Source of the DNA: Ignavibacteriales bacterium
Lineage (GTDB): Bacteria > Bacteroidota > Ignavibacteria > Ignavibacteriales > Melioribacteraceae
Direction of reading: 5' to 3'
Length of the DNA: 32,557 bases
Assembly: GCA_003599395.1 (NCBI GenBank)
Contig: QZJX01000011.1
Location: 1-32,557 of the forward strand
The position numbers and the translations under genes are program-made. This document shows, piece by piece, positions 4,739-21,925 of the stretch. The notes under the pieces are model-generated. The model was not told the origin of the DNA and made no database searches. It saw nothing but the letters and a program-made list of their open reading frames with translations. Each line of letters starts with the position of its first letter. Within the stretch, counting starts at the first letter, position 1.

Positions 4739-4753
4739 TAATTTGAGGTCGAG

Positions 4754-5845: not shown

Positions 5846-6898
5846 ATGAAAGAAATATTAAACTATGAACTCTGGGGGAATACGGTTTCAGAATATTTAA
5901 TGGCATTATTAATTCTTATAGTTTCCGTAATAATCATTCAACTGATAAAAAAATATGTTTTTAAAAAAATAGAAAGCACCGGGACTGAAGGTGTACTAGG
6001 TACAAAGTTTATAATAAAGATTACATCTCGCTTCGCAATTCCTTTATTTTATCTAGCTGCTCTTTATCTCGCTTTTGATTTTATACAAATTCCGGAAAGC
6101 GCTACTAAAGTTATTAAAGTTATATACTTACTAATTATTGTTTGGATAATCATAAAATTTGCAAGAGCTGTAATTGAATTTATGATTAATAAGTATGCCG
6201 AAGAATCGGGAAAAGAAGATACCGTAAGAAAATTTCGTCCATTACTCGCTTTTTTAAACTTCACTTTCTACATAATCGGTATACTATTTATACTAGATAA
6301 TCTTGGATTTCACATATCTACGGTTATTGCCGGATTAGGCATTGGTGGTATTGCAATTGCCCTCGCTGCTCAAGCGATTCTAGGTGATCTTTTTAGTTAC
6401 TTTGTTATTTATTTTGATAGACCGTTTGAACTTGGAGACTTTATCAGGGTTGATGATAAAGCCGGTGTGATTGAAAGAATCGGTGTTAAATCTACTAAAA
6501 TTCGTTCATTAAGCGGCGAACTTCTTGTAATGTCTAATTCCAATTTAACAAACTCCAGAGTTCACAATTTTAAACAGATGTTTAGAAGAAGAATTGTTTT
6601 TACAATTGGAGTAACTTATCAAACCAAACCTGAGCAGCTTGAGGAGATTCCAAAAATAATTAAACAAATAATTGATGAAGCCGAAAATGCTACATTTGAT
6701 AGATCACACTTTTTTAGATACGGTGATTTTAGTTTAGATTTTGAAACTGTCTTCTTTGTTGAAACTAATGATTACATAAAGTACATGGACATTCAGCAGG
6801 AAATTAATTTAAAGATTTATAAAGAACTTGAAAAACGTGGAATTGAATTTGCTTATCCGACTCGAACACTTTATATGAAAAGTGAATCAAAATCATAA
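5846..6898 (+). CDS. MscS-family mechanosensitive ion channel
   Basis: A 350-aa small-conductance mechanosensitive channel protein, which would open under membrane tension to release solutes during hypo-osmotic shock. It has an N-terminal hydrophobic helix (about 15-34), further helices near 58-78 and 86-108, and a Gly/Ala-rich pore helix (GLGIGGIAIALAAQAILGD, about 164-182). The MscS beta domain follows, with FDRPFELGDFI and the SNSNLTNS segment, then the C-terminal alpha/beta domain. The ATG follows the corA stop codon directly, so translation is probably coupled to corA. The exchanger-family gene begins 18 nt downstream. The substrate range and the exact MscS subclass cannot be decided from sequence. 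Confidence 0.92.
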   Translation: MKEILNYELWGNTVSEYLMALLILIVSVIIIQLIKKYVFKKIESTGTEGVLGTKFIIKITSRFAIPLFYLAALYLAFDFIQIPESATKVIKVIYLLIIVWIIIKFARAVIEFMINKYAEESGKEDTVRKFRPLLAFLNFTFYIIGILFILDNLGFHISTVIAGLGIGGIAIALAAQAILGDLFSYFVIYFDRPFELGDFIRVDDKAGVIERIGVKSTKIRSLSGELLVMSNSNLTNSRVHNFKQMFRRRIVFTIGVTYQTKPEQLEEIPKIIKQIIDEAENATFDRSHFFRYGDFSLDFETVFFVETNDYIKYMDIQQEINLKIYKELEKRGIEFAYPTRTLYMKSESKS

Positions 6899-6916
6899 AT
6901 TGTAAAGGAAAATTAG

Positions 6917-7858
6917 TTGGTAGAAATTATTCTATATCTAGCAGGTGGATTATTAATTATGCTGCTCGGTGCCGAAGGGCTTGTACGTGGTGCATCTGCT
7001 TTGGCACTCAGAATCGGAATATCACCGCTAGTAGTCGGTTTAACAGTCGTAGCTTTCGGGACAAGCAGCCCTGAGCTAGTTGTGAGTATCGGATCTGCAA
7101 TTGAAGGGAATAGTGATATTGCAATCGGAAATGTAATCGGCTCGAACATAAGTAACATAGCATTAATACTTGGAATTACCGCTCTAATTAATCCTATAAA
7201 AGTAAATGTGCAGCTTATAAAAAGAGAAATTCCAATAATGATTGGAGTTACTATCGTCTTCTTATTATTCTTTTATGATCTTTCACTTTCACGATTTGAG
7301 GGCTTTCTTTTATTCATCGGTATAATAGTTTATACTGTTATAAGTTATAAACTTTCAAAGAAAGAGAAAAAGGAAACTGAATTAGAGTTTGAGAAAGAAA
7401 TTCCACGGGCAAAGGGAAATTTATTTAAATCTATTTTGATGGTGGTGTTTGGTCTAATCTTCTTAGCGCTCGGTTCAAAACTATTTGTCGATGGTGCGAT
7501 TGAAGTTGCACTTATGTTAAATATTTGTCAAGTTATAATCGGATTAACAATTGTAGCAGTTGGAACAAGTTTACCTGAGTTAATCACATCAGTAGTTGCT
7601 GCAATTAAAAAAGAGGGTGATATAGCAATCGGAAATATCGTCGGATCTAACATATTTAATTTACTTTCTATTCTCGGATTAACAGCAATTATTTATCCGA
7701 TAACCTCAGAATCAATTAGTCTGCTTGACTTGGGAATGTTCAGTCTTACAGCATTGATAATGTTACCTCTTTCACGTACTGGATTTATTCTGAATAGAAT
7801 TGAAGGAGCAATTCTTATCGGTATTTATGTAACTTATATATATTTCTTGATTCCTTAA
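6917..7858 (+). CDS. Na+/Ca2+ exchanger-family protein (CaxA/YrbG-like)
   Basis: A 313-aa membrane antiporter of the CaCA superfamily with the family's internal duplication. The alpha-1 repeat holds GTSSPE (48-53) and GNVIGSN (71-77); the alpha-2 repeat holds GTSLPE (216-221) and GNIVGSN (239-245). An acidic and basic cytoplasmic loop (about 145-168) separates the halves. About ten membrane helices are expected, and the role is exchange of Ca2+ for Na+ or H+ across the inner membrane. The start is a TTG with AAGGAA six nt upstream, and no nearby ATG fits. It follows the MscS gene by 18 nt in the same direction. Its last 4 nt overlap the convergent SMP-30 gene. Confidence 0.92.
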   Translation: MVEIILYLAGGLLIMLLGAEGLVRGASALALRIGISPLVVGLTVVAFGTSSPELVVSIGSAIEGNSDIAIGNVIGSNISNIALILGITALINPIKVNVQLIKREIPIMIGVTIVFLLFFYDLSLSRFEGFLLFIGIIVYTVISYKLSKKEKKETELEFEKEIPRAKGNLFKSILMVVFGLIFLALGSKLFVDGAIEVALMLNICQVIIGLTIVAVGTSLPELITSVVAAIKKEGDIAIGNIVGSNIFNLLSILGLTAIIYPITSESISLLDLGMFSLTALIMLPLSRTGFILNRIEGAILIGIYVTYIYFLIP

Positions 7859-8742
7859 TTAACACCACTGGTTTTCATCAGTATTTTATAAACCGATGTT
7901 CTGGCAGTAATGAACAATATATCTCTATCTTTTCCACCAAAACATACATTCGAAGGAAGTTCAGGTACCGATATATTGGCTATCTTTTTTCCTTCTCTAT
8001 TAAATACCGAAACAAAATCATTCGTTAAATATATGTTTCCAAGATTGTCTATTGTCATTCCATCAGAACCTTCTTCGGTAAAAAGCATTCTATTTTTTAG
8101 TGAACCATCCGTTTGTATTTCGTATCGATAAGTTTTGCTATCACCGATATCAGCGACATATAAGTATTCTCCATTCGGTGTTCCGATAATACCATTTGGC
8201 TTAACCAAATTTTCATCCGCGATGGTTAATGTTCCGTCCGGCGAATAATAATAGACGCGCTCTTGATCAATTTCGGGCTCGGTTCTTTCCCAGTATGGTC
8301 TTTGATAATATGGATCTGTAAAATATATTCCGCCGTTTGGCGCAATCCATAAATCATTTGGTCCGTTTAATTGTTTTCCCTCAAAGTTGTCAATTAAGAC
8401 GTCATATTTACCATCCGGTTTTATGGAAATTAATTTACCGTCAAGATCGGCGCAGGCAATAAGGTTTCCATCTTTGTCGAAATAAATTCCATTAGCTCTT
8501 TCGGGAGAATTGTGAAAGATTTTTATTTCGTCATTTTCATAATCCCACATATAAATTTTATCATTAGGTTGATCGGTGAAATAGACATTTCCATCTTTGT
8601 CAACCGCCGGACCTTCTGTAAAACTAAATCCGGATTGAATTAATTCCGGAGTGCCGATGTATATTGAAGATTCATCCTGCGCAGATAATATAAAGGAAGA
8701 TAAGAGAAAAATTATAAATGCTAGTTGAAGTTTTATTTTCAT
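7855..8742 (-). CDS. Exported SMP-30/gluconolactonase-like protein
   Basis: A 295-aa beta-propeller protein of the SMP-30/gluconolactonase/LRE family, which hydrolyses sugar or other lactones at a bound divalent metal. A signal peptide (residues 1-21, cleavage after SA before QDESS) places it in the periplasm or outside. Repeats of the form DxxGNxYFTD (for example VDKDGNVYFTD and IDNLGNIYLTN) are the propeller strands. FTEGP and LNGPNDLW carry the expected Glu and Asn metal ligands. GGAG precedes the ATG. It lies 41 nt downstream of the amidohydrolase gene in the same direction, so it may be the last gene of the amidoligase operon. A link to that pathway is inference only. Confidence 0.85.
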   Translation of the reverse strand: MKIKLQLAFIIFLLSSFILSAQDESSIYIGTPELIQSGFSFTEGPAVDKDGNVYFTDQPNDKIYMWDYENDEIKIFHNSPERANGIYFDKDGNLIACADLDGKLISIKPDGKYDVLIDNFEGKQLNGPNDLWIAPNGGIYFTDPYYQRPYWERTEPEIDQERVYYYSPDGTLTIADENLVKPNGIIGTPNGEYLYVADIGDSKTYRYEIQTDGSLKNRMLFTEEGSDGMTIDNLGNIYLTNDFVSVFNREGKKIANISVPELPSNVCFGGKDRDILFITARTSVYKILMKTSGVN

Positions 8743-8783
8743 TTTCGAACTCCATAATTGTTCATAAAAAATTTTTGATGATG

Positions 8784-9473
8784 CTAAGATATAGACTTGA
8801 AAGAATTAATTATAAGATCGAGCATAATTTCTTTATTAAAATCATTTTGTAGATGTTTCTGATTTATTTCAAGCTCAATTCCACAATAGCTTTGTGAACC
8901 GTACTTATTGCGCAGATAAGATGTGAAGCCGTCAGCAACTCCAAGATAAGGATAATTAAATCTAACTCTATACAAATTACTCAATCTGTTTATTTCTGCT
9001 TTCCAATTTTTACAAAAAACTTTTTCAAATGTTGATTTAGAGTCGTATAAAAGACCAATATCAGTCTTTCGAGTTACTCCATTTAATTCGCGCGTAAATG
9101 AATGAAATGAAATATGAATCACTTTATTATTTTGGTTAATTAAATCAACAATGCCGTTCTCAACTTTGTCACGATAAGGCTTATAGTAATTATTTATAAT
9201 TCTTTGTTTTGCTTCGTTATCTAATATTCTTGTGATTTCAGAAAAGAGATTTTGATGATGAAGGGAACGGTTCAACTCAATTAACAATCGTGATGTTTCC
9301 GAATAAAAACTTTCACCGTTAAAATGTTTTACAAATTCTTTGAAGATTTCTAAAATACCAATGTCGTAAGCGCGATGTGTTTTGAGGAGCGGGCGATGAG
9401 CTTTAAATAAATATTTATATTCATTCGGAATATTATTGCCGCCGTGTTCACATGTAAAAATATATTTTGTCAC
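8784..9473 (-). CDS. N-formylglutamate amidohydrolase-like protein
   Basis: A 229-aa protein of the N-formylglutamate amidohydrolase (FGase) family, zinc hydrolases related to carboxypeptidase-like folds. Visible signatures are TCEHGGNNIP at the N-terminus, LIELNRS near residue 68, HISFHSFTRE in the middle and GIELEINQKH near the end. The classical enzyme acts in histidine degradation, but no hut genes are present here. Its start is a GTG that overlaps the stop of the ligase gene before it in a 4-nt GTGA, which indicates translational coupling. In this operon it more plausibly hydrolyses an N-acyl-glutamyl or gamma-glutamyl amide produced by the two ligases. That role is inference. Confidence 0.85.
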   Translation of the reverse strand: MTKYIFTCEHGGNNIPNEYKYLFKAHRPLLKTHRAYDIGILEIFKEFVKHFNGESFYSETSRLLIELNRSLHHQNLFSEITRILDNEAKQRIINNYYKPYRDKVENGIVDLINQNNKVIHISFHSFTRELNGVTRKTDIGLLYDSKSTFEKVFCKNWKAEINRLSNLYRVRFNYPYLGVADGFTSYLRNKYGSQSYCGIELEINQKHLQNDFNKEIMLDLIINSFKSIS

Positions 9474-10708
9474 GGAACAAACATCTCGTTTGTAATTAAT
9501 GAATTGCGTAATTGTTTGTAAACATGAACGATGTTATCGTGTGAAAAATCATTTTTAATCGAGTTTAAAATTCGTGTAGCTAGCGACCCGTGATTAAGTA
9601 TAGTTTCAATCGGTCGAAATTGATTCTTGCTTAAAATAGAATCATCAAAAACTATGTTCGAAAAAATATGCTGCCATAATTCTTTTGCTGAACATTTATT
9701 TTTATTTATTCCAAATGCCCTAAGATATTTTCTGTTAGTTATAATTGAATTCTCGCCGGTTTTAATTGTTGATAATAATATTTCACTTAATTCATTTTCA
9801 TGAATAGATTTTTGTTCATTATAAGAGATATTATTTTCTCCTATCAACTCTTTCAAAACAAAAGAAAATAAACCGACCAAAGCTAAATCTGTTTTGGGGC
9901 ATTCCTGAATGTCAACAACTCTAATTTCGATTGTATTTCTATCAAATCTTGCAATAGCACCTCGAGAGTTCAGCCACTCATTTTGTAAAATTCCATTTTC
10001 ATCATAAGCAGCTATATCCTGATATATTCTATTGAAAATCTTTTCTTCATAATCTTCTCTAGTAAATACTTGTTCGGGAATTACTTTGCCTGTTATTGAA
10101 GGAATTCTAATCTGATTCTTTCTGTAAACTTCTAATCGTGCATCAAGAAATCCGGTATTCTTACTATCTAAAATTGGAGTACTGGCGGCAATGGCGGGAA
10201 TTATTGGAAGCAATAATCTTATTGCTGCGTGAAGCTTTCCAAATTCATTGTCGTCTGCAAACGGTAAATTAATATGTGTGCTTTGCAAGTTTGACCAGCC
10301 ATGTCCCCGACAATCAAATATTTTATTATAAGCTTCGTAAACTGTGTTATTATCATGCGGCCAAAGTTTTGTTTCGGTATCTGGATGATAGAATGGGTGA
10401 GCACCTGAAGGAAGTAAGACAGAATTATATTTTTCAAGAATTTTATTTATTCTTTTTACATTTTGTGAAAATTTATCACTTAGCTTATTAAGCAATTTTG
10501 CCGGACCGTTAGTTTTTAATTCTATTACATGCAGAACAATTTCGTTCGACCAGCCAATTTCTTCGTCTTCATAATCGGAAATATATTCACCGGTAACTTC
10601 TTTTATAACTTCATCTGTGATTGGATTTACCCTCAGTGTATCATTATCAACTATCATGTATTCAAGTTCAACGCCAAAACCCTGGAAAAGTCCGAGAGAT
10701 TCAATCAT
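9470..10708 (-). CDS. GCS2-family glutamate-cysteine ligase-like carboxylate-amine ligase
   Basis: A 412-aa enzyme of the GCS2 family (glutamine-synthetase fold), which uses ATP to join a carboxylate, classically the glutamate gamma-carboxyl, to an amine such as cysteine. The N-terminus has the metal-binding GFGVELEYMIVD (E14, E16). HPFYHPDTETKLWPHD, STHINLPF and NTIEIRVVDIQECPKTD further on match the core strands and the C-terminal Arg region of this family. The gene is joined to its upstream ligase gene by a 4-nt ATGA overlap and to the amidohydrolase gene by a GTGA overlap. The product could be a gamma-glutamyl compound. With no classical gshB nearby, the RimK-like partner could supply the second ligation. 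The true substrates are unknown. Confidence 0.87.
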   Translation of the reverse strand: MIESLGLFQGFGVELEYMIVDNDTLRVNPITDEVIKEVTGEYISDYEDEEIGWSNEIVLHVIELKTNGPAKLLNKLSDKFSQNVKRINKILEKYNSVLLPSGAHPFYHPDTETKLWPHDNNTVYEAYNKIFDCRGHGWSNLQSTHINLPFADDNEFGKLHAAIRLLLPIIPAIAASTPILDSKNTGFLDARLEVYRKNQIRIPSITGKVIPEQVFTREDYEEKIFNRIYQDIAAYDENGILQNEWLNSRGAIARFDRNTIEIRVVDIQECPKTDLALVGLFSFVLKELIGENNISYNEQKSIHENELSEILLSTIKTGENSIITNRKYLRAFGINKNKCSAKELWQHIFSNIVFDDSILSKNQFRPIETILNHGSLATRILNSIKNDFSHDNIVHVYKQLRNSLITNEMFVP

Positions 10709-13033: not shown

Positions 13034-13252
13034 ATGGCCGAAGATGCTTTTGTTTACTATAAGTTCAAGAACCGTAAAACAGGCGAACTGATAGATGCGG
13101 TTTTAGCTTTTAAAAATGTTGAAGAACATGATCCAGCCTTAAAAAAATTCTTCGATATACATGAGTACAAAATTGTTGAAAAACGCCTGTCTCGTGTTGA
13201 AGAATTTGATAAGTGGCGTAAAGAAACTAAACCGTCACTTAAGAAGTACTGA
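13034..13252 (+). CDS. Small conserved-looking protein of unknown function (72 aa)
   Basis: A 72-aa charged, soluble protein. Its sequence suggests a compact fold: strand-like AFVYYKFKNRKTGELIDAVLAF, then a helix around HDPALKKFFDIH, then a basic and acidic helix ending KPSLKKY. I do not recognise the family. Starts at TTG 12986 or ATG 13010 are possible on frame alone. I chose ATG 13034 because a full-consensus promoter ends at 13009 and GAGGAA lies at 13025-13030. It is divergent from the amidoligase operon and precedes the Rrf2 gene by 72 nt, with a separate promoter in between. It could be a regulatory or accessory protein, but nothing in the sequence proves this. Confidence 0.6.
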   Translation: MAEDAFVYYKFKNRKTGELIDAVLAFKNVEEHDPALKKFFDIHEYKIVEKRLSRVEEFDKWRKETKPSLKKY

Positions 13253-13271
13253 TTTCCCAAAATAATTTTAC

Positions 13272-13302
13272 TTGCAATAGAGAAGAAATAGTAATATTTT
13301 TT
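13272..13302 (+). promoter_or_regulatory. Candidate promoter of the Rrf2 gene
   Basis: TTG at 13272-13274, a 20-nt spacer, then TATTTTTT at 13295-13302. Only the last base departs from TAnnTTTG. The predicted start of transcription, about 6-7 nt further on, falls inside the palindromic element at 13305-13324, as expected for autorepression. Confidence 0.45.
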
Positions 13303-13304
13303 AT

Positions 13305-13324
13305 CAGAATAAAAACTCTGATTT
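13305..13324 (+). promoter_or_regulatory. Putative Rrf2/NsrR-like operator, copy 1 (autoregulatory)
   Basis: CAGAATA-N5-TCTGATTT, ending directly before the ATG of the Rrf2 gene. With one flanking base pair it contains perfect arms ATCAGA (13303-13308) and TCTGAT (13317-13322) around an 8-nt spacer. Fifteen of the 20 positions are identical, in the same register, to the copies upstream of nirK (21012-21031) and the DUF6448 gene (21762-21781). A palindrome at its own promoter and in front of NO-related genes suggests the binding site of this regulator. Binding is not shown. Confidence 0.6.
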
Positions 13325-13756
13325 ATGACGGTAATTTTCTCTAAAACATGCGAATTAGGGCTTCAAGCTGTTCTCTTTTTATCAATAAAAAAAGAAAAAA
13401 GAATTTTTACAGCTTCTGAAGTTTCAAAAGAATTAAAAGTGCCAAAGGAATACGTTTCTAAGGTAATGCAGATTCTAACCGAAAGCGGAATCATCGGTTC
13501 TAAAAAAGGGAAGAACGGCGGATTTTATCTCGCTAAAAGTCCAAGCAATATAAAACTAATCGATATTGTGCAAGCGATTGATGGTTTGGAACTCTTTAGT
13601 AATTGTGTGCTGGGTTTTCCCGGCTGCTCTTCGGATCATCCTTGTCCGGTTCATGACAAATGGGGAAAACTACGTGACGATGCCTACAAAATGCTTTCCA
13701 CAGAAACTCTCGAACAACTTAAAGAAAAAACACTTCATAAATTGGTTAGTTTATAG
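13325..13756 (+). CDS. Rrf2-family transcriptional regulator with Fe-S-type Cys/His motif
   Basis: A 143-aa Rrf2-family winged-helix regulator of the IscR/NsrR type. The N-terminal winged helix (about 1-75) includes SKTCELGLQAVLFL, the recognition-helix region VPKEYVSKVMQIL and the wing KKGKNGGFYLAK. The cluster-binding loop has C94, C101, C107 and H110. The C-x5-C-x2-H part matches the IscR spacing, while the first gap is one residue longer. Such proteins bind [2Fe-2S] or [4Fe-4S] clusters and respond to NO, Fe-S status or redox. A palindrome abuts its start codon and recurs before nirK, so an NO-sensing NsrR-like role is the best guess. An IscR- or CymR-like role is also possible. No Shine-Dalgarno is visible, so its mRNA leader may be very short. 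Confidence 0.9.
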   Translation: MTVIFSKTCELGLQAVLFLSIKKEKRIFTASEVSKELKVPKEYVSKVMQILTESGIIGSKKGKNGGFYLAKSPSNIKLIDIVQAIDGLELFSNCVLGFPGCSSDHPCPVHDKWGKLRDDAYKMLSTETLEQLKEKTLHKLVSL

Positions 13757-13817
13757 TTCGGTAATTTTCTAACATTTCTCTTAACAATTCTTCATTAAAG
13801 AAGCTCCTCTTTTTCGA

Positions 13818-13848
13818 TTCAATGTAATCAAAATATTATGTAATTTTT
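13818..13848 (+). promoter_or_regulatory. Candidate promoter of the SLC13 permease gene
   Basis: TTC at 13818-13820, a 20-nt spacer, then TAATTTTT at 13841-13848. It is one base off in each box of the TTG-N20-TAnnTTTG pattern and lies 30 nt before the permease ATG. It suggests the permease can be transcribed separately from the Rrf2 gene. Confidence 0.3.
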
Positions 13849-13878
13849 TCTAACGATTAAGAACAACTAAAATAACCA

Positions 13879-15648
13879 ATGGATTATATTTTTGTTTTTA
13901 TTATTCTCGTTATGATACTAGTTTTATTTGTATGGGATAGAATTAGATATGATTTAGTATCGTTGTTTGGATTATTAACTCTAGTAATCCTCGGTATTAT
14001 TCCCGCCGATAAAGCATTTCTTGGATTTGGTCATCCCGCCGTAATTACTGTTGCCGTTATTTTGATAATTGGTAAAGCTTTAGAGAATTCAGGATTAATA
14101 GATGTGCTGGGTAAGTGGATAACTAAAGTCGGATCAAATATTTCAATACAAATAGTAACCCTATCATTACTAATTGCATTTTCCTCAGCTTTTATGAATA
14201 ATGTCGGAGCACTTGCAATACTAATGCCGGTAACAATTCAAATTGCAAAAAAAAATAATTACCCACCTTCGTATTTACTAATGCCATTAGCCTTTGCTTC
14301 CTTGCTGGGCGGTATGTTAACATTAATCGGAACTCCGCCGAATATTATTATAGCTAATTTCAGAGCCGAAGAAATCGGCGAAGCATATGGAATGTTTGAT
14401 TTCACATTTGTGGGCGCAGGTATTTTACTAATCGGAATATTATTTATTTCAACAATTGGTTGGAGATTGTTGCCTAAATATACGGCAAAAAAATCTCAGG
14501 AAGAATCATTTGTAATTGATGACTACATAACAGAAGTAAAAGTGGGTAAAAATTCCAAAGTGATCGGGTTAAACATTGAGGAACTTGGTAAACTCTCAAA
14601 AGCTGATATACAAATATTAGGTTTAATAAGAAACAATAAACGAATTCATGCTCCTAGTAATGATGAAGTACTACTAGGCGATGATGTAATTATTTTAGAA
14701 AGTGACACAGAAGAGTTAAAAGTGTTTATCGACGATACAGAACTTAAACTTATCGGGGATAAAAGTTTTCGTAAAGATGCAACGGGTTCAAAGGATATAA
14801 CAATTACAGAAGCAGTTGTTATGGCAGATTCACCATTAATCGGAAATACAACATCAAATCTGAGGATGAGAAGCAGATATGGTGTTAATTTATTGGCGGT
14901 CTCCCGTAAAGAAAAAAAGATTCACAATAGACTTGATCATGTAATTTTCCGTAAAGGCGATGTGTTAATGTTGCAAGGGAGAGCGCAGACTATAGATGAA
15001 TCCATTAAATCAATGGGTTGCTTGCCGTTAGCTCGGCGTAATTTAAGAATCGGCTTTGAGAAACGAATAGCAGTTACTCTTTCTGTATTTATTATCGCAA
15101 TTATGTTGGTAGTCTTTAATTTGCTTCAGGTTCATATTGCTTTTTCAATTGCGGCCATCGTTATAGTCTTAGCAGGAGTGCTTCCACTTAAAGAGATATA
15201 CAGCGGAATTGATTGGCCTGTCATAGTTTTGTTAGGGGCAATGATCCCCATCGGTGAAGCGGTTCAGACGACAGGCGGAACCGACCAAATAACAGCACAA
15301 ATTTTAAGTTTTGCTAAAGATCTTCCTATTTGGACTACATTAGGCTTGGTCCTGGTTGTTACGATGCTGCTGTCGGCAGTAATTAACAATGCTGCAACGG
15401 TAGTATTAATGTCTCCGATAGGTATTGGAATTGCAAACAGTTTGAATTTATCAATCGATCCATTTTTAATGGCAATTGCGGTTGGGGCATCTGCTTCATT
15501 TTTAACTCCAATCGGTCATCAATCCAATACTCTTATTATGGGTCCGGGCGGGTATAGATTCGGAGATTATTTCAGAATGGGATTACCGTTGAGCATTTTG
15601 ATAGTTATTATAGCAATCCCGTTAATATTATTTTTCTGGCCTGTATAA
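13879..15648 (+). CDS. SLC13/DASS-type permease with two RCK_C (TrkA-C) domains
   Basis: A 589-aa inner-membrane transporter. The N-terminal half (about 1-205) has roughly five to six helices, with AFMNNVGALAILMPV and LTLIGTPPNIII as the first SNT-type substrate/sodium motif. Two RCK_C domains (about 215-290 and 305-385) follow; VIGLNIEEL and SPLIGNTTSNLRMR begin them. The C-terminal half repeats the transporter unit with VINNAATVVLMSPIG and FLTPIGHQSNTLI. This architecture occurs in sulfate or dicarboxylate permeases of the SLC13 family. Sulfate, other oxyanions or C4-dicarboxylates are possible substrates, and sequence alone does not decide. It lies 122 nt after the Rrf2 gene and 27 nt before the DUF202 gene. 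Confidence 0.88.
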   Translation: MDYIFVFIILVMILVLFVWDRIRYDLVSLFGLLTLVILGIIPADKAFLGFGHPAVITVAVILIIGKALENSGLIDVLGKWITKVGSNISIQIVTLSLLIAFSSAFMNNVGALAILMPVTIQIAKKNNYPPSYLLMPLAFASLLGGMLTLIGTPPNIIIANFRAEEIGEAYGMFDFTFVGAGILLIGILFISTIGWRLLPKYTAKKSQEESFVIDDYITEVKVGKNSKVIGLNIEELGKLSKADIQILGLIRNNKRIHAPSNDEVLLGDDVIILESDTEELKVFIDDTELKLIGDKSFRKDATGSKDITITEAVVMADSPLIGNTTSNLRMRSRYGVNLLAVSRKEKKIHNRLDHVIFRKGDVLMLQGRAQTIDESIKSMGCLPLARRNLRIGFEKRIAVTLSVFIIAIMLVVFNLLQVHIAFSIAAIVIVLAGVLPLKEIYSGIDWPVIVLLGAMIPIGEAVQTTGGTDQITAQILSFAKDLPIWTTLGLVLVVTMLLSAVINNAATVVLMSPIGIGIANSLNLSIDPFLMAIAVGASASFLTPIGHQSNTLIMGPGGYRFGDYFRMGLPLSILIVIIAIPLILFFWPV

Positions 15649-15675
15649 TTTATAAATTTTTTCAAGGTGTTAATT

Positions 15676-16002
15676 ATGTTAAGACGATTAAACTTGTTCA
15701 AAGATATTTTCAGTAATAAAGAACGAATAATCCTAAGAGATTATTTAGCTCTGGAAAGAACTAAACTAGCAAATGAGAGAACTTTTATGGCATACCTTAG
15801 AACTTCTCTTTATATGATACTTGGAGGAATAGCCTTTCTGCAAATGGAAGATTTTAAAGAGATAATTTGGGTGAGTTATGTAACGCTTGGTTTAAGTGTA
15901 GTACTCTTATTCGTTGGGCTATACAGATATCTCCAAATTAGATACAGAATTAAGAATTATTTTGTAGCGGGTTATGAAAGCACCAATGAAGAGGTTAGAT
16001 AA
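15676..16002 (+). CDS. DUF202 (YidH-like) membrane protein
   Basis: A 108-aa protein of the DUF202 family. The hallmark segment RDYLALERTKLANERTFMAYLRT (about residues 22-44) precedes the first membrane helix, and a second helix lies near 70-90. The family's function is unknown. I chose the ATG at 15676, which has AAGG eight nt upstream, over an in-frame GTG at 15667. It follows the permease by 27 nt in the same direction and is probably co-transcribed. It converges on the methyltransferase gene with a 24-nt gap. Confidence 0.85.
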   Translation: MLRRLNLFKDIFSNKERIILRDYLALERTKLANERTFMAYLRTSLYMILGGIAFLQMEDFKEIIWVSYVTLGLSVVLLFVGLYRYLQIRYRIKNYFVAGYESTNEEVR

Positions 16003-16026
16003 AAAATTGTTGTAAAGCAAGTTGAG

Positions 16027-16767
16027 CTATTTGGAAATTACAATAATTAAGTTTGGGGATTTGTCATAATCAAATTTATCAAGGTTCACATTTCCGTAAT
16101 ATTTAGTTTTTGTAATTCCGATTTCTGTCAATAAATCATCAAGAAAATCTTTTGTGTAAGGGAAGATCTCGGTTGTAAATAGTTTCTTATCGGAAGAATT
16201 TTTCTTATCAAACGATAGTACATTAAAAAATACTTTTTCATTGCAGAAATCGTAAAATCTAATAAACTGTTTATTGTCTGATTCAGTGATGTTAACTATT
16301 CTTTCTTTTTGCTCTAGGACAGATGTGTAGTTCAATATTTGAATAACTGCTTTACCGGTTAGCTTCAACATTCTGAAAATTTTATTAATCGATTCCTCTA
16401 TCTCATCCCTAGAAATATTCGCAAAAGTATTTCCAAGAGATAAGATATAATCGAATGAATTGAAAAACGATTTATCGATTTCTACTACTTTTCTATTGTA
16501 GATCTCGACCTTAACATTGTGTTTCTTAAAATTTTCCTTAGCTTGCTCAAGCATTTGAGAGGAGGGTTCGAATGCTGTCACGTTAAATCCGGATTTAGCC
16601 AAAGCAATTGAATCAGCACCGCTGCCTGCACCAAGGTCGGCAACGGTTTTACCTGATTCTAATGAGAGGGTGCGAATGAAATCAATTTTATTTTTGATCT
16701 GTTTCTCGAGCGGAATCATTTCATCATATTGCTCGGCAATGTCGTTGTAGAAATTGGAGTTCGTCAT
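16027..16767 (-). CDS. Class I SAM-dependent methyltransferase
   Basis: A 246-aa methyltransferase with the Rossmann-type SAM fold. Motif I is VADLGAGSGADS (residues 42-53), followed by the acidic end of beta-2 (FEPS, 67-70) and FDYILSLGNTFANI as motif IV/post-motif region. The substrate is not evident; small molecules are likely, given the resemblance to UbiE/glycine-methyltransferase-like proteins. It is the last gene of the nitrite-reductase cluster. Its ATG overlaps the stop of the hemerythrin gene by one base, so co-translation is likely. Whether it works with the nitrosative-stress genes is unknown. Confidence 0.85.
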   Translation of the reverse strand: MTNSNFYNDIAEQYDEMIPLEKQIKNKIDFIRTLSLESGKTVADLGAGSGADSIALAKSGFNVTAFEPSSQMLEQAKENFKKHNVKVEIYNRKVVEIDKSFFNSFDYILSLGNTFANISRDEIEESINKIFRMLKLTGKAVIQILNYTSVLEQKERIVNITESDNKQFIRFYDFCNEKVFFNVLSFDKKNSSDKKLFTTEIFPYTKDFLDDLLTEIGITKTKYYGNVNLDKFDYDKSPNLIIVISK

Positions 16768-17213
16768 TATTTTACTGCGTCGATTTTTGAAACCAACTTG
16801 TCTAGTTCTTCTTCGCCAAATACTGTTTGAATCCGATCAAACAATTCACGCTCTTCTTTTCTGATATGCTGCTCGAGTATAAATCCAAGATCATTTAATA
16901 TTTCCTCTTTTTCATTGGAATTTTTTAACTGACCGATTTTGAATTCTATTTCTTCATGTTCGATTAAAAGCTCATCGATAAGTTCATCAATTTTTTCATC
17001 TTTGTTTCCGACAGCCGGGAAAAGAATATCTTCTTCGTTTTTGAAATGAAATTTTAATTCGTTCTCCCAGGCATTTATAACATAATTGGATTTGTCGTCA
17101 ATATCATTAGGTAAATTCTTATAAACCGGGGAATCCTTTTTTATTAACTGTGCTAATTTTAAACCGTGATGATGATCATGGGATAAACCGATTAATTTTT
17201 TGTGTCTTTTCAT
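16767..17213 (-). CDS. Hemerythrin HHE-domain protein
   Basis: A 148-aa four-helix hemerythrin-like protein that probably binds a di-iron centre. Candidate ligands are in LSHDHHHGLKLA near the N-terminus, FHFKNEEDILFP (about 54-65), EHEEIEF and EQHIRKEERELFD (about 113-125). Members sense or store O2, NO or iron. It starts inside the Ric/ScdA stop region (4-nt ATGA overlap), and its stop overlaps the methyltransferase ATG by one base, so it belongs to the same transcript. A role next to Ric in handling NO damage is a reasonable inference. Confidence 0.88.
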   Translation of the reverse strand: MKRHKKLIGLSHDHHHGLKLAQLIKKDSPVYKNLPNDIDDKSNYVINAWENELKFHFKNEEDILFPAVGNKDEKIDELIDELLIEHEEIEFKIGQLKNSNEKEEILNDLGFILEQHIRKEERELFDRIQTVFGEEELDKLVSKIDAVK

Positions 17214-17956
17214 AACGCTAATAGTTCTTTCTCTAATTCAATTGATTTTGGAAACAATATATTATTTTCTAAATGAACATGTATATGCAAATCTTTTTCA
17301 AAATCATGCAATTCTTGATAAGTTAATTGAAATGTGTTACATGCATCTGCAGGCGGAGTAAAATTGTTAGTCAATGTTCTTATTCTTTCCAATGCACTGC
17401 CGGCATTTGAGTGTTCAGCTTCCATTGATTCGATTGGATTTTTTACTGTCTTGAAACCACCGACTCTAGGTTTCTCATTAAACTTTTTGCAATCAACCAA
17501 GTAGCGTATTATATGAAAAAGTATCGTTTCTTCTTTATGCATGTGAGAATACATCTCTCCAGCAACATCCTCGAAAAGTGATTTTATTTCAATTAATTCA
17601 GGATATTTATTTCCGTGTTTAAATGCGACTTTTTCTAAATGAGGAATCATTTGAGGTATTGCATTTCTTACATACGAGTGATGATTATTGACAATATATT
17701 CTGTTAGAAATTTTAGATCCCAATTCTCATAGCGTTTCTCTTCTTGAACTCCAGATGATAAAACGGAATCCAATTCGGATAGTATTGTTTGAACACTTAC
17801 ATTTTTTTCGTCGCATGCTTCTTTAAGCGGACGATTTCCTTTACAACAAAAATCAATTCCGTGTTTTTCGAAAACATGAGCTGCTTTGATGTTAGATGTG
17901 AGAATATCTTTAACAATTATTTGGTTTGGATCTATTTGAAATGTGTCGGTAAACAT
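17210..17956 (-). CDS. ric: Iron-sulfur cluster repair di-iron protein Ric/ScdA/YtfE
   Basis: A 248-aa cytoplasmic di-iron protein that repairs Fe-S clusters damaged by NO or peroxide. The N-terminal ScdA_N (DUF542) domain holds HVFEKHGIDFCCKGNRPL with a vicinal Cys pair. The C-terminal hemerythrin-like domain supplies His/Glu ligands in NNHHSYVR, SHMHKEETILFH, EAEHSNAG and HVHLENNILFP. The length matches the family. AGGAG lies before the ATG, one base after the Sco stop codon. Its place behind nirK and Sco fits repair of damage by NO from nitrite reduction. The gene is called ric, scdA, ytfE or dnrN in different organisms. Confidence 0.94.
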   Translation of the reverse strand: MFTDTFQIDPNQIIVKDILTSNIKAAHVFEKHGIDFCCKGNRPLKEACDEKNVSVQTILSELDSVLSSGVQEEKRYENWDLKFLTEYIVNNHHSYVRNAIPQMIPHLEKVAFKHGNKYPELIEIKSLFEDVAGEMYSHMHKEETILFHIIRYLVDCKKFNEKPRVGGFKTVKNPIESMEAEHSNAGSALERIRTLTNNFTPPADACNTFQLTYQELHDFEKDLHIHVHLENNILFPKSIELEKELLAL

Positions 17957-17957
17957 T

Positions 17958-18632
17958 TTATACTCCTAGTTTAGTTTGATTCTTAATTACTTCTAATGTT
18001 TTTTGAATATCTTGATTAAGTCCTACTTGTTGATGAATTATTTCACCTTCTTTGTTAAGTATTGTTATAATATTAGAATGAGAAAATGAACCGTCATTTT
18101 CTTCTTTGTATCTAAATCCGGTTAACGCTGCTAAGTCATCAATATCACTTCGCTTACCGGTTAGTAATTGAAATCTAGCAAGATTTAAATTTTGGTTATC
18201 AGCAAATTCTTTTAGTCTTTCGGGTGTATCTCTATCGGGATCAATTGAAATTAGAGTGAACTGAACATTTCTTAATTCATCTTTCGTTAGTGCATCTTCA
18301 ATTCTTCTCATATCGTTTGCAAGAATCGGGCATGCATAAGTACAGTTTGCAAATATCATTGTGAAAATTTGCGTTTTACCTTTCAAGTCGCCAATGTGAA
18401 CATCATTGCCAAATTGATTTTTCCAATTTGAGTTTACTTGATAAACGGAGTTTTCAGAAAAGTTTGTCGATGCAGTTTCATCCATGTCTGTTGCACAACA
18501 TGATTCAGCCTTTGGTTTTTCCTTTTGAAGTTTTGCTTCAGCTAAATTTTCGGAAGTACCCGAGAATGCAATTAAAGTAACCGATACTGCGGCTGCTAAA
18601 AAGATTACTAGACTAATGACTAATTTTTTCAT
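17958..18632 (-). CDS. SCO1/SenC-family copper chaperone or thioredoxin-like protein
   Basis: A 224-aa thioredoxin-fold protein anchored by an N-terminal hydrophobic segment (about 4-23) and facing the periplasm. The Sco copper site is visible: C97 and C101 in FANCTYACP plus H185 in FSHSNIITIL. Sco proteins deliver Cu or reduce thiols, classically for the CuA centre of cytochrome oxidase. Here, directly behind nirK and the NirV-like gene, it more likely helps metallate copper nitrite reductase. An extra vicinal Cys pair (45-46, SCCATDMD) lies in the linker before the domain and could also bind copper. It begins 12 nt after the NirV-like gene. Confidence 0.9.
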   Translation of the reverse strand: MKKLVISLVIFLAAAVSVTLIAFSGTSENLAEAKLQKEKPKAESCCATDMDETASTNFSENSVYQVNSNWKNQFGNDVHIGDLKGKTQIFTMIFANCTYACPILANDMRRIEDALTKDELRNVQFTLISIDPDRDTPERLKEFADNQNLNLARFQLLTGKRSDIDDLAALTGFRYKEENDGSFSHSNIITILNKEGEIIHQQVGLNQDIQKTLEVIKNQTKLGV

Positions 18633-18644
18633 TTTATTCCTCTC

Positions 18645-19436
18645 TTATTTTAAATCCATTGCACATCTAAACCCTAGATTACGGGTTGTGTAATTTGCTT
18701 TTAAGCTGCTTCTGAATGCGAAACGCATAAAGGCAGGATAGTTTGTAAAATCTGTCGCACCAACCGATCCGTTTCCGCAGAACAAGTTTCTGTTAATACC
18801 ATTGCTTGCACGTGATTCACCGGTTACTAATGCATTGAAAAAATCTCTGGTCCATTCCCAAACCAATCCATGCATATCATGAACACCGTAATAGTTTTTA
18901 AAGACCGAGCCAACCGGTGGAAGAGATTCTGAATTTGGTTTTGAATACCAACTAATAATTCTTGATATGTATTTGTCATTCTTATAACCGTCGGCATGAT
19001 TTTCATCAGCCATTGCAGCTAACTCCCATTCGGCAACTGTTGGTAAACGTTTGTCATGAAATTCCGCATAAGCTTTTGCAGCAAACCAGCTTACGTTTAT
19101 CACTGGGGATTTGGGATTTACTTGCTGACCAAGTTTTTCGTCACTTTCCCAATGCATTAAATAATTTTGATCTGCAAAGAGCTTTGTAACATTTGATCTT
19201 TTCCATTTTGGATTTTTCTTAACAAATTCTAAAAACTGTTCATTTGTTACCGGGTATTTATCGATCAAGAATGATTCTACTTTTACACTTTGATCGGTTG
19301 TATCATCAACATAAAGCGGTGTATAGATTCCTGCCGGAATAATTGACATTTCTTGATTTTGGAATCCCGGTTTGTTTGCAACAAGCAGTTGAGCAAAAAA
19401 TATTATTGCGATCGATATTTTAATTAACTTTTTCAT
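18645..19436 (-). CDS. nirV: NirV-like formylglycine-generating-enzyme-family protein
   Basis: A 263-aa exported protein (signal peptide about residues 1-20, ending VANKPG) with an FGE-sulfatase (SUMF1) domain. Characteristic segments are FLIDKYPVTNEQFLEFV, PVINVSWFAAKAYAEFHDKRLPT (cited as a recognised region, about 105-127), EWELAAMADE and GLVWEWTRDFF, ending NLGFRCAMD. In several denitrifiers such a protein, NirV, lies beside nirK and is thought to help nitrite-reductase maturation or nitrosative tolerance. Two nt separate it from the nirK stop, which supports this name. It is unlikely to be a true formylglycine enzyme because no sulfatase gene is near. The nirV symbol rests mainly on context. 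Confidence 0.83.
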   Translation of the reverse strand: MKKLIKISIAIIFFAQLLVANKPGFQNQEMSIIPAGIYTPLYVDDTTDQSVKVESFLIDKYPVTNEQFLEFVKKNPKWKRSNVTKLFADQNYLMHWESDEKLGQQVNPKSPVINVSWFAAKAYAEFHDKRLPTVAEWELAAMADENHADGYKNDKYISRIISWYSKPNSESLPPVGSVFKNYYGVHDMHGLVWEWTRDFFNALVTGESRASNGINRNLFCGNGSVGATDFTNYPAFMRFAFRSSLKANYTTRNLGFRCAMDLK

Positions 19437-19438
19437 AT

Positions 19439-20989
19439 TTACTTTCTTGTTAAGGCATTGCTATTTTTATATTTCTTTACATCTTCAACTGTTACTGTTT
19501 CATTTGATTTATTGATTTCTTTATATACATAAGTAAGTACGGCTGCCATTTGTGTATCTGTTAATTGCTGCGGGGGCATAACGTTGTTATACTTTTTACC
19601 GTTTACAGTAATTTCACCGTTCATACCGTTTGCAACTGCGGCAATCATTCCGGCTTTACCGTTTTTCTTAATCCAGTCGGAATCTTTAATCGGTGGAAAT
19701 ACATTTGCCATTCCGGATCCGTCCATCATATGGCAAGCCGAGCATGTTGATTGATATAATTGTTTTCCCATTTTTGCGAGATCATCATTTGTGGAAGATG
19801 AATTTTCACTCTTCGATTCGTTATTAGCTGGTGGAGTTAAACTTGAATAATCTTGTTCAGATGCTTCGTTTGCAAATTGGGGAACATAATTTTCTTTAGT
19901 ATTATTATCTCTGTAAGTCCCCGTTGTAGGGTCGATTGAGCCGAAATCTTTTTTATTTCCGCTGTAAAGTTCGTCTGCAGTTTTGTGTGAAAAAATTATT
20001 TCATCCTCAGGACCGGTTACGGCAATTTTACCAATTGCTCCTTTATTGAATGCTCTGAAAATTGAATGGTCCACAAGAATGAATTCACCAGGAACATCAA
20101 CTTGAAACTCAACAATTGCGGAGCCGCCTGCCGGCACTAAGGTTGTCTGCACATTTTTTTGATTTCTTGTAGTGCCGCCTTCTTGATAAACAACGTCAAA
20201 TATTTCACCAATAACATGGAAGGATGAGACTAAATTTGGACCGCCATTTCCAACAAATAATCTTACTTTCTCACCAACTTTAGCTCTTAAAGCTTTATCA
20301 CCAACCATTGAGCCAACCGAACCGTTGAAAACAACATAGTCGGGATTCTCTTCTAATGCTTTTTCCATACTGAATGGTTGATAACCTTCTTCACCGTATT
20401 TGCCTTCGGTATAAAATTCACTTTGCATCACATAGTATTCTCTATCAACCGGAGGTAATCCCTCTTTTGGTTCTACTAGGATTAATCCATACATACCATT
20501 TGCAATATGTAAACCAACAGGAGCGGTTGCACAGTGATAAACATAAAGTCCGGGATTAAGAACTTTGAAATTGAATACTGAAGTATGTCCCGGAGTAGTG
20601 AAGGATGCCTCTGCGCCGCCACCAGGGCCGGTAACAGCGTGAAGATCAATATTATGTGGAAGTTTACTTGAAGGGTGGTTGTGTAAGTGAAATTCAACTT
20701 CATCACCTTCGCGAACTCTAATAAAACTTCCTGGTACTTCACCGCCGAATGTCCAAAATGTATATTCGACTCCATCGGAAAGTTTACCGACAAGTTCTAG
20801 AACTTCCAATTCAATTTTTACTTTTGCCGGATAATCACGAGTTATCGGCGGGGGAACATGTGGCGCTTGCGTTAATTTTGCAGTAATTACTTCTTGAACT
20901 TCTTGTGATTTGCTTTCATCACACGACGATAATATAAATGCTGCTATTGTCAGTATTAAAAAAGCAGTTATATATTTTATTTTTTTCAT
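19439..20989 (-). CDS. nirK: Copper nitrite reductase fused to a C-terminal cytochrome c
   Basis: A 516-aa exported lipoprotein-like enzyme (lipobox LSSC, C23) that reduces nitrite to NO in the periplasm. Two cupredoxin domains carry the type 1 copper ligands H112, C153, H161 and M166, and the type 2 ligands H117, H152 and H308. The catalytic residues D115 and H258 are present in [10 protein letters not shown] and SSFHVIGE. A linker rich in Ser/Asn precedes a fused cytochrome c domain (about 403-495) with heme motif CSACH (416-420) and M471 as probable axial ligand. The fusion supplies electrons directly. AAGGAGAGG precedes the ATG. A 20-bp operator-like element lies 22 nt upstream. Nitric oxide reductase genes are not in the window. 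Confidence 0.96.
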
Positions 20990-21011
20990 TGTTTCCTCTC
21001 CTTTATAAAAA

Positions 21012-21031
21012 CAGAATATTTTATCTGATTT
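21012..21031 (-). promoter_or_regulatory. Putative Rrf2/NsrR-like operator, copy 2 (nirK)
   Basis: CAGAATATTTTATCTGATTT on the plus strand, lying 22-42 nt before the nirK ATG. Arms AACAGA and TCTGAT flank an 8-nt spacer, with one mismatch from palindromy per arm pair. A 23-nt stretch (21009-21031) is identical to that upstream of the DUF6448 gene (21759-21781), and 15 of 20 positions match the element at the Rrf2 start. The promoter here is less clear than at the other two copies; a poor TTC-N21-TACAAAAA is all I see. nirK may also be reached by read-through from the DUF6448 gene, whose stop is only 15 nt away from this element. Confidence 0.6.
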
Positions 21032-21046
21032 TTTTGTAAAAAATTT

Positions 21047-21658
21047 TTAATGACTGTGTGAACTTCCCTTTGCCTCTTGACCATGACCGGCATGATCAGA
21101 AAGCTCAGAGGATTCATAAATTGCTTCAACAAAGTGCATAAACTTAACGTAGTTTTCTACATATTCACGTCCGGCTTCTACATTTTTTATATCAAAATTC
21201 TTTGCATCAATTACATTTTCAAAATAATGATGAAGACTATTGTGAAGTTTATCGCTTAACAATTTATACAATTCCGTTAGTGATTCATTTTCGATTGATA
21301 TATCAGCAGCCGGAATTGCGAGACCCAGATCCCTTCCTGCTTCTTTTAAGCCGCTGTAAGAAGCTCCTTCGCCCAAACGATGTAAACGAACGAAAGTTTC
21401 AAAAAAGTACATATCTGCCATTTCTTGAGCTTCTTGGCTCTGGGTTCTAACTTTAAGCGTTTTTTCAAATGCTGTTTTGACTTCATCTTCGTGTTCAGCT
21501 TGAATCCATATCAATGCATGGTCAAGGTTTTGTGTTTCAATAGCTTTTTTGGCAGCTAATACAACCGGTCCATCGACACCATCACAGTGTGCAGAAACCG
21601 GGTTTGTAATAAAGAACAAAAGCGATAATATTAATAAAGGAAAACTCTTTCGTCTCAT
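21047..21658 (-). CDS. DUF6448-like exported His-rich protein
   Basis: A 203-aa protein with a signal peptide (MRRKSFPLL then a hydrophobic core, cleavage near VSAHCDG). The mature part starts with HCDGVDGPVV and is helical, with many His, Glu and Asp residues, for example HLALIW-like HALIWIQAEHEDEV, HNSLHHYFENV and a His-rich tail HAGHGQEAKGSSHSH. This matches a DUF6448-type family seen next to nitrite or copper proteins; I name it from memory of similar sequences. Metal binding, perhaps copper, is likely but unproven. I chose the ATG at 21658, with GCGAGG upstream and an intact signal peptide, over the longer ATG at 21697. It precedes nirK by 57 nt and shares its operator. Confidence 0.75.
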   Translation of the reverse strand: MRRKSFPLLILSLLFFITNPVSAHCDGVDGPVVLAAKKAIETQNLDHALIWIQAEHEDEVKTAFEKTLKVRTQSQEAQEMADMYFFETFVRLHRLGEGASYSGLKEAGRDLGLAIPAADISIENESLTELYKLLSDKLHNSLHHYFENVIDAKNFDIKNVEAGREYVENYVKFMHFVEAIYESSELSDHAGHGQEAKGSSHSH

Positions 21659-21728
21659 TTGGTACCTCGCTTCATATTTCTGAATATTTAATGTCATAAA
21701 TGGAATCTCTTGTCTTATTTAATCTGCT

Positions 21729-21756
21729 AAAAAATGCTGCTTTTCCTGGGCAGCAT
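21729..21756 (-). terminator. Terminator-like hairpin in the leader of the DUF6448 gene (possible attenuator)
   Basis: On the minus strand ATGCTGC (21756-21750), a 9-nt loop CCAGGAAAA, and GCAGCAT (21740-21734) form a perfect 7-bp stem. A run of six T, counted from the last stem base, follows. This has the form of an intrinsic terminator but sits about 70 nt before the gene start and directly after the predicted promoter and operator. It could attenuate transcription or end a short RNA. Confidence 0.5.
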
Positions 21757-21761
21757 ATAAA

Positions 21762-21781
21762 CAGAATATTTTATCTGATTT
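21762..21781 (-). promoter_or_regulatory. Putative Rrf2/NsrR-like operator, copy 3 (DUF6448 gene)
   Basis: The 20 bases are identical to the nirK copy and share 15 positions with the copy at the Rrf2 gene. It lies directly downstream of the -7 box at 21781-21788, so the predicted transcription start falls within it. This is the classic position for a repressor site. Confidence 0.6.
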
Positions 21782-21811
21782 CAATATAAGGATAAAAAGA
21801 TATCGTGTCAA
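21781..21811 (-). promoter_or_regulatory. Promoter of the DUF6448 gene and probably nirK cluster
   Basis: On the minus strand TTGACA (21811-21806) is followed after 17 nt by TATATT (21788-21783), a standard sigma-70 layout. Read as the Bacteroidota pattern it is TTG-N20-TATATTGA. The spacing is identical to the clear TTG-N20-TAnnTTTG promoters at 12979 and 26404. The transcript would start near 21776, inside the operator. Confidence 0.55.
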
Positions 21812-21850
21812 CAATAAAATAAAAAAAATATCAGGGGAGAGATTATCGAC

Positions 21851-21888
21851 TAAAAAAAATGGAATTAATCACTAAAATTAATTCCATT
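21851..21888 (-). terminator. Intrinsic terminator of glyS
   Basis: A 12-bp perfect stem (AATGGAATTAAT 21858-21869 against ATTAATTCCATT 21877-21888) with a 7-nt loop. On the minus strand it is followed by a run of T from the A-tract at 21852-21859. It lies 38 nt after the glyS stop and separates it from the nitrite-reductase cluster. Confidence 0.7.
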
Positions 21889-21925
21889 CTTTTAAAAAAG
21901 TAACAAAGATAACTTGAGTTAAAGT

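Follow-up and report, generated by a model that had tools for sequence, protein, structure and literature searches.

A conserved palindrome as the probable operator of an iron-sulfur Rrf2 repressor of nitrogen-oxide metabolism in the Melioribacter/Ignavibacterium group

The contig QZJX01000011.1 of an Ignavibacteriales bacterium (assembly GCA_003599395.1), analysed over its positions 1 to 32,557 and called the window here in that full length of 32,557 nucleotides, encodes an Rrf2-family regulator and, 7.7 kb away, a run of genes that begins with nirK, and a short palindrome recurs in front of both. The question raised by this arrangement is whether the palindrome is the operator of the regulator, as a preliminary description of the window had proposed, and which genes it would then control. 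In relatives the palindrome has the consensus TTAATCAGA-N8-TCTGATTAA, its middle being rich in A and T. On sequence grounds it is an operator conserved among sediment bacteria of the Melioribacter/Ignavibacterium group, and it probably belongs to a clade-specific iron-sulfur (Fe-S) Rrf2 repressor, encoded at 13325-13756, that would switch nitrogen-oxide metabolism.

The motif CAGAATA-N5-TCTGATTT occurs in the window at 13305-13324, 21012-21031 and 21762-21781 with zero mismatches, and all three copies agree at 15 of 20 bases in one register. The two copies in the nir region, 750 bp apart, share 23 identical bases (AAACAGAATATTTTATCTGATTT, at 21009-21031 and 21759-21781). The copy before the regulator gene, rrf2, forms a perfect ATCAGA-N8-TCTGAT at 13303-13322, and the copies before nirK and the DUF6448 gene have one mismatch each. 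Copy 1 abuts the rrf2 ATG (13325), ending one base earlier, and copy 2 lies 22 nt upstream of the nirK ATG. The preliminary description was thus reproduced in its positions, the common register, the bases shared by all three copies and by the two nir copies, the perfect arms at rrf2 and the spacing to the start codons. The features concerned are as follows, with scores from profile R1, which is described below.

13272..13300, forward strand: predicted rrf2 promoter TTGCAA-N17-TATTTT, whose -10 box ends 2 bp before operator 1; the spacing is the same in relatives
13303..13322, forward strand: predicted operator 1, the perfect palindrome before rrf2; profile R1, 19.7 bits, with the profile match starting at 13300
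13325..13756, forward strand: Rrf2-family regulator of 143 amino acids (aa); PF02082, 102.9 bits, and TIGR00738; candidate ligands E10, C94, C101, C107 and H110
19439..20989, reverse strand: nirK, copper nitrite reductase with a C-terminal cytochrome c domain; TIGR02376, 369 bits, above the cut-off
21010..21029, reverse strand: predicted operator 2, before nirK; profile R1, 17.7 bits
21760..21779, reverse strand: predicted operator 3, before the DUF6448 gene; profile R1, 18.1 bits; also present in L045/L369

Searching the assembly to which the window belongs (2.45 Mb, 81% complete) with the extended form WWCAGAATA-N5-TCTGATTT returned three exact matches, which are exactly the window copies, and 14 matches with up to two mismatches, compared to 6 for a reversed control, so the motif is neither frequent nor randomly scattered in this genome. 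Within the window alone, CAGAATA-N5-TCTGATTT at up to three mismatches was found 8 times against a mean of 3.6 in shuffles, and loose palindrome matches numbered 23 against a shuffle mean of 23. Loose matching within the window is close to chance; the exact copies and their conservation carry the case.

Conservation was examined at 80 loci encoding relatives of the Rrf2 protein, drawn mostly from metagenome-assembled genomes of Melioribacter, Ignavibacteria, Bacteroidetes and Chlorobiota. At the 78 loci with enough upstream DNA, the 250 bases preceding the gene were scanned for ATCAGA-N8-TCTGAT and the best match was kept; it was perfect in 16 and had at most two mismatches in 42, with about one expected from single-base shuffles. 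Operator 1 is identical in G227 (3.74 Mb), a genome that is closed and belongs to the same species. A search of 116 relatives, many of whose genomes are incomplete, gave 131 exact copies of the 20-bp palindrome in 75 genomes, compared to 6 sites for the reversed control. Within the phylum, the window's order has the exact 22-bp form in 14 of its 28 genomes, and genomes outside the order have it in 15 of 268. Four of the sites outside the order were inspected: two in G291, before nrfHA and nosZ, one in G226, and one in G121 near the frame start of an unrelated gene. The G226 site (L410, 2167) is a 25-point match inside a 1384-aa reading frame of a distant genome, and is the kind of chance match expected outside the clade. 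In two closely alike Neomarinimicrobiota loci (L123 and L124), AATTCGGA-N8-TCCGATT precedes an Rrf2 gene with three mismatches to the palindrome, and no further copy of the motif was found in their 17-19 kb.

The putative targets were read from a 26-position profile, R1, built from the rrf2-promoter sites of relatives only, with the window excluded, and run over the 116 genomes. For the best 77 distinct sites among the matches listed (E up to 0.0036), the surroundings were fetched, the next genes were read, and each site was classed by hand. These sites comprise 24 rrf2 promoters, which resemble the training set of R1 and are not independent of it, 43 sites before nitrogen-oxide genes, 4 before a second Rrf2 gene only, and 6 without explanation; that is, 43 of the 53 sites among these best matches that are not rrf2 promoters precede nitrogen-oxide genes. 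In 22 of the 43, the gene encodes NrfH, Hcp, a cytochrome c of the type found in NosZ or NarG operons, RIC, or a DUF438-hemerythrin protein. Example profile scores lie above the cut-offs for NarG (1494.8 bits), Sec-dependent NosZ (972.1), NrfA (637.2) and NrfH (164.8), and a partial Hcp reached 364.4 bits against a cut-off of 367; at the remaining loci the naming of NosZ, NarG and the cytochromes comes from inspection by eye or from BLAST clustering. No isc or suf gene was recognised among the classified sites, although these genes were not searched by name. The sites conserved before rrf2 and before nitrogen-oxide genes support the autoregulated regulon that had been predicted.

In the window's own genome, the best R1 site lies on another contig (C41:3641, 20.3 bits), followed by those of rrf2, DUF6448 and nirK at the scores given above and by C41:3500 (15.5 bits) and C41:11064 (15.1 bits). 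The site at C41:3641 sits between divergent NapH-like-NrfH-NrfA and ferredoxin-DUF438-hemerythrin genes, the latter with a further small gene. The best seven sites of G227 precede the same divergent nrfHA//ferredoxin pair, rrf2, DUF6448, nirK, a cytochrome c-narGH operon, a second RIC gene and a run of Peptidase_S74 genes. The predicted regulon is thus wider than the nirK and DUF6448 targets proposed at the outset. The weaker site at C41:11064 (L360:11066) lies before genes for a histidine kinase with a PAS domain and for a response regulator of the NtrC type, and layered control of nitrogen-oxide genes is possible there. In G080 (L272, site 2001) a near-perfect site stands before a 129-aa protein without a Pfam match, followed by a TonB-type receptor, which we take to resemble copper receptors.

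The position of the palindrome relative to promoters was read from 358 oriented windows around sites scoring at least 21, each site being read in both directions and duplicate windows entering the count a single time. In 50 of the 358, the first base of an exact TTGACA lies 31 or 32 bp upstream of the A of ATCAGA; any other TTGACA-ATCAGA distance occurs in at most 4, and where TTGACA is found the -10 box ends 2-3 bp upstream of the operator. The transcription start should therefore fall inside the operator wherever a -35 box is recognisable, a position that suggests the geometry of a repressor blocking RNA polymerase, and the palindrome would therefore be a repressor site. The nirK site has no more than a TTCACA 33 bp upstream of it, and a clear -10 box is absent.

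The regulator itself is readily placed in the Rrf2 superfamily (PF02082, cut-off 30 bits; TIGR00738, 102.9 bits, cut-off 73.3) but falls short of the NsrR equivalog model (NCBIfam NF008240, 47.4 bits against 182) and the IscR model (TIGR02010, 52.8 bits against 207.55), and its scores for the RirA, CymR and SUF-regulator models are likewise a long way under the cut-offs. The cysteines and histidine noted earlier, C94, C101, C107 and H110, are indeed present, and together with E10 and W113 they are invariant in all 63 aligned sequences, that is, the window protein and relatives from 62 of the 80 loci that are 44-92% identical to it. The spacing of the candidate ligands, C94-x6-C101-x5-C107-x2-H110, resembles the three-cysteine, one-histidine (C3H) set of IscR. 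E10 was aligned by eye with Asp8 of Streptomyces coelicolor NsrR, which is a cluster ligand in that protein (PMC5411485). An AlphaFold model of the regulator has a mean predicted local distance difference test score (pLDDT) of 90.7; the closest solved structure both by sequence and by Foldseek is RsrR, and VIA-align placed the model closest to CymR, RsrR and IscR, with NsrR lower. As to the signal, the targets favour nitric oxide (NO) or a related species.

Put together, these observations would fit the following mechanism. An Fe-S-loaded Rrf2 dimer, its cluster presumably held by C94, C101, C107 and either H110 or E10, would sit on the operator and block RNA polymerase at rrf2, at the nirK-RIC-hemerythrin genes and at DUF6448 and, elsewhere in the genome of the species, at NapH-like-nrfHA, ferredoxin/DUF438 and narGH. 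NO or another reactive nitrogen oxide would damage or nitrosylate the cluster, the dimer would leave the DNA, and the genes of the pathway and of damage repair would then be induced together.

A number of points weigh against this reading. Both the binding and the NO signal of the Rrf2 protein are matters that we infer from sequence. At 36 of the 78 loci the best site upstream of rrf2 has three or more mismatches and is not convincing, and Stygiobacter genomes (G036, G063) keep sites at nrf or RIC genes with none convincing at rrf2. Of 96 genomes that have an rrf2 orthologue, 68 contain an R1 match at E<0.01, compared to 3 of 20 without one, but this association is partly circular, the rrf2-promoter sites being included in the count. 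Of the 43 nitrogen-oxide sites, 21 are followed by nothing more telling than a NapH-like Fe-S protein and/or a ferredoxin, and these were counted through their operon partners because the operons that were read continue into NrfHA or DUF438-hemerythrin genes: NrfH and NrfA come after the NapH-like gene in L338, L360 and L402, and DUF438-hemerythrin comes after the ferredoxin in L360 and L402. Taken bare, the 12-base palindrome is unspecific: of 56 exact copies in one set of fetched regions, 29 were marked as lying within a reading frame. A few of these frames (e.g., in L256 and L261) look spurious, and when flanks and middle were scored, none of the 65 sites scoring at least 25 in the fetched regions lay inside a gene. 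The targets of the window are also unevenly kept. A site with at most two mismatches precedes nirK in 8 of 23 loci, the window's own included, and RIC in 11 of 40, some RIC genes, the window's among them, sitting within longer operons; a site with at most one mismatch precedes DUF6448 in 2 of 28 loci, those of the window species and one near relative. The proposal of nirK and DUF6448 as targets thus holds for part of the nirK genes of relatives and is narrow for DUF6448, which we rejected as a general member of the regulon. Lastly, a strong site in G227 (L401:3287) precedes four tandem secreted Peptidase_S74 proteins (3440-9595), and at least five relatives (G022, G025, G032, G034 and G041) have the operator in front of another, divergent Rrf2 gene. 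The Peptidase_S74 (endosialidase chaperone) proteins are about 500 aa each, and we know of no link between them and nitrogen oxides.

Second Rrf2 paralogues with an operator were seen in L338 (6679-7074), L349, L341, L347 and L342, most of them with altered Cys/His motifs, and that of L338 adjoins nosZ. Where a second Rrf2 gene bears the operator, the paralogue may be the cognate protein, or control may be shared or exchanged. Such genes lend some weight to the view that the operator is owned by another regulator, which could be a second Rrf2 paralogue, such as the one that adjoins nosZ in G022, or some unrelated factor, with rrf2 only one of the targets; some rrf2 orthologues lack the site, and a nearby Rrf2 gene has been suggested as the regulator of a nos operon (Kadnikov et al. 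2013, PMC3534657). We nonetheless regard this view as improbable, given that the window's own genome has four further Rrf2-like matches, none of which was found with such an operator, that rrf2 orthologues bear it at more than half of the loci with upstream DNA, and that 17 of 20 orthologue-free genomes have no R1 match at E<0.01, a count subject to the partial circularity already mentioned. Chance similarity or local duplication, which could be read from the 23 bases shared by the neighbouring nir copies and from the near-chance number of loose matches in the window, is contradicted by the R1 search, with its conserved sites and coherent targets across genomes, and has next to no probability.

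A more serious alternative concerns the signal rather than the operator, and is compatible with the operator and regulon proposed here: the Rrf2 protein may sense Fe-S or redox status in the manner of IscR or RsrR, the genes being switched by cluster supply or oxygen instead of NO. The IscR-like C-x6-C-x5-C-x2-H arrangement and the nearest solved structures, RsrR, CymR and IscR rather than NsrR, speak for it. The named targets, which are nitrogen-oxide genes along with RIC, Hcp and hemerythrin genes, the lack of any recognised isc or suf gene among the classified sites (again, not searched by name) and E10 at the position of NsrR Asp8, the N-termini being read by eye, speak against it, and we hold it to be a tentative possibility, somewhat unlikely overall. 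That the site serves an activator is a much slighter prospect; RsrR has been suggested to act as both activator and repressor (PMC5015018), but the operator here follows the -10 box and lies over the predicted start site wherever a -35 box is recognisable. The NO-responsive Rrf2 repressor acting at the conserved palindrome remains the reading that we prefer.

Of the known systems, NsrR is the nearest in role. It is likewise an Rrf2 protein, its predicted targets include nirK, dnrN (RIC/YtfE) and hcp, with control of nos predicted in P. profundum (Rodionov and colleagues, PMC1274295), and in S. coelicolor NsrR is autoregulated (PMC4861436), a form of control that here is predicted from the operator before rrf2. 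The NsrR operator, gATGyAT-N5-ATrCATc, differs from the even-centred ATCAGA-N8-TCTGAT at 5 to 7 of 14 positions across the three sites; the window protein has H110 and a C-x6-C spacing not shared with NsrR, and the sites described here also precede narG, nosZ and nrfHA operons. The regulator would thus be NsrR-like in role but, judged by model and operator, is not an NsrR equivalog, and its operator and ligand spacing differ. IscR shares the three cysteines and histidine (PMC5411485) and a similar fold, but has C-x5-C in place of C-x6-C, and no Fe-S assembly gene was recognised among our sites. RsrR of Streptomyces, the best match among solved structures, has class 1 sites that are 11-3-11 repeats and targets that point to NAD(P)H metabolism (PMC5015018), compared to an even-centred palindrome and nitrogen-oxide targets here. 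Elsewhere among bacteria these pathways are controlled by DNR, NnrR and HcpR (PMC1274295), which belong to the CRP/FNR family and use other boxes. A related proposal is that for Mros1101, the Rrf2 protein encoded near the nos operon of Melioribacter roseus (PMC3534657), which concerns the same clade and nitrogen-oxide genes and is offered, in the relevant passage, without an operator or a wider regulon.

The FNR, CRP-like, IscR type 2 and RirA consensus boxes were also compared to the three sites, and none fits well. Closest come the FNR box, with 2 of 10 mismatches at the rrf2 site only, on the common ATCA run; the short RirA box, which mismatches every site at 2 of 6 positions; and the IscR type 2 box, with 3, 3 and 4 of 9. 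The motif therefore differs from the NsrR and IscR boxes, as had been remarked from the window alone. A literature search covering abstracts and passages found no description of an ATCAGA-N8-TCTGAT operator.

The other genes and signals of the nir region are these.

16027..16767, reverse strand: class I methyltransferase, last gene of the nir run; PF13649
16767..17213, reverse strand: hemerythrin-domain protein; PF01814
17210..17956, reverse strand: RIC/ScdA iron-sulfur repair di-iron protein; TIGR03652, 234 bits, above the cut-off
17958..18632, reverse strand: SCO1/SenC protein; PF02630
18645..19436, reverse strand: sulfatase-modifying-factor (FGE)-like protein, on the nirK strand; PF03781
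21047..21697, reverse strand: DUF6448 protein; PF20046, 185 bits
21734..21756, reverse strand: terminator-like hairpin ATGCTGC-N9-GCAGCAT followed by a T run, in the DUF6448 leader; read from sequence
21783..21811, reverse strand: predicted DUF6448 promoter TTGACA-N17-TATATT (11 of 12 consensus bases), ending 3 bp before operator 3; read from sequence

The distance of 7.7 kb between the regulator and its targets had been singled out earlier; the figure is correct, but the arrangement is not special, as 14 of the 20 genomes whose NirK match exceeds 470 bits, the window's own included, have rrf2 and nirK within 8 kb of each other on a single contig. The DUF6448 promoter is the top promoter-like match within 13200-21900 and is also present in the same-species genome and in G002. 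The true start of the DUF6448 protein is perhaps at 21658, where a signal peptide (MRRKSFPLL) would begin. The hairpin in its leader sits between the promoter/operator and the start codon and is the same in the closed same-species genome; a hairpin scan with a loop limit of 8 did not report it, its loop being 9. It could be an attenuator or give a short RNA, but a conserved attenuator was rejected, the hairpin being absent from G002. DUF6448 genes adjoin nirK (in the window and in G002, L369), nosZ (G073, L335) or RIC with rrf2 (G093, L175/L362), and these neighbourhoods hint at a role in nitrogen-oxide or copper metabolism.

What the palindrome may mean for the group reaches beyond the window. 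We give an even chance to a broader picture in which all respiratory nitrogen-oxide reduction (of nitrate, of nitrite by both branches, and of nitrous oxide) and NO repair would stand under one Fe-S Rrf2 repressor that replaces a CRP/FNR-type regulator, so that the choice between denitrification and ammonification would be read by a single cluster, and in which a second, ligand-altered paralogue would have taken over the operator in some lineages. This would be an Rrf2 regulon that takes in the reductase operons for nitrate, nitrite and nitrous oxide, and its operator resembles the sites of neither NsrR nor RsrR. The regulator, operator and target list can be checked in existing metatranscriptomes, where the genes that carry the palindrome should rise with nitrite or NO.

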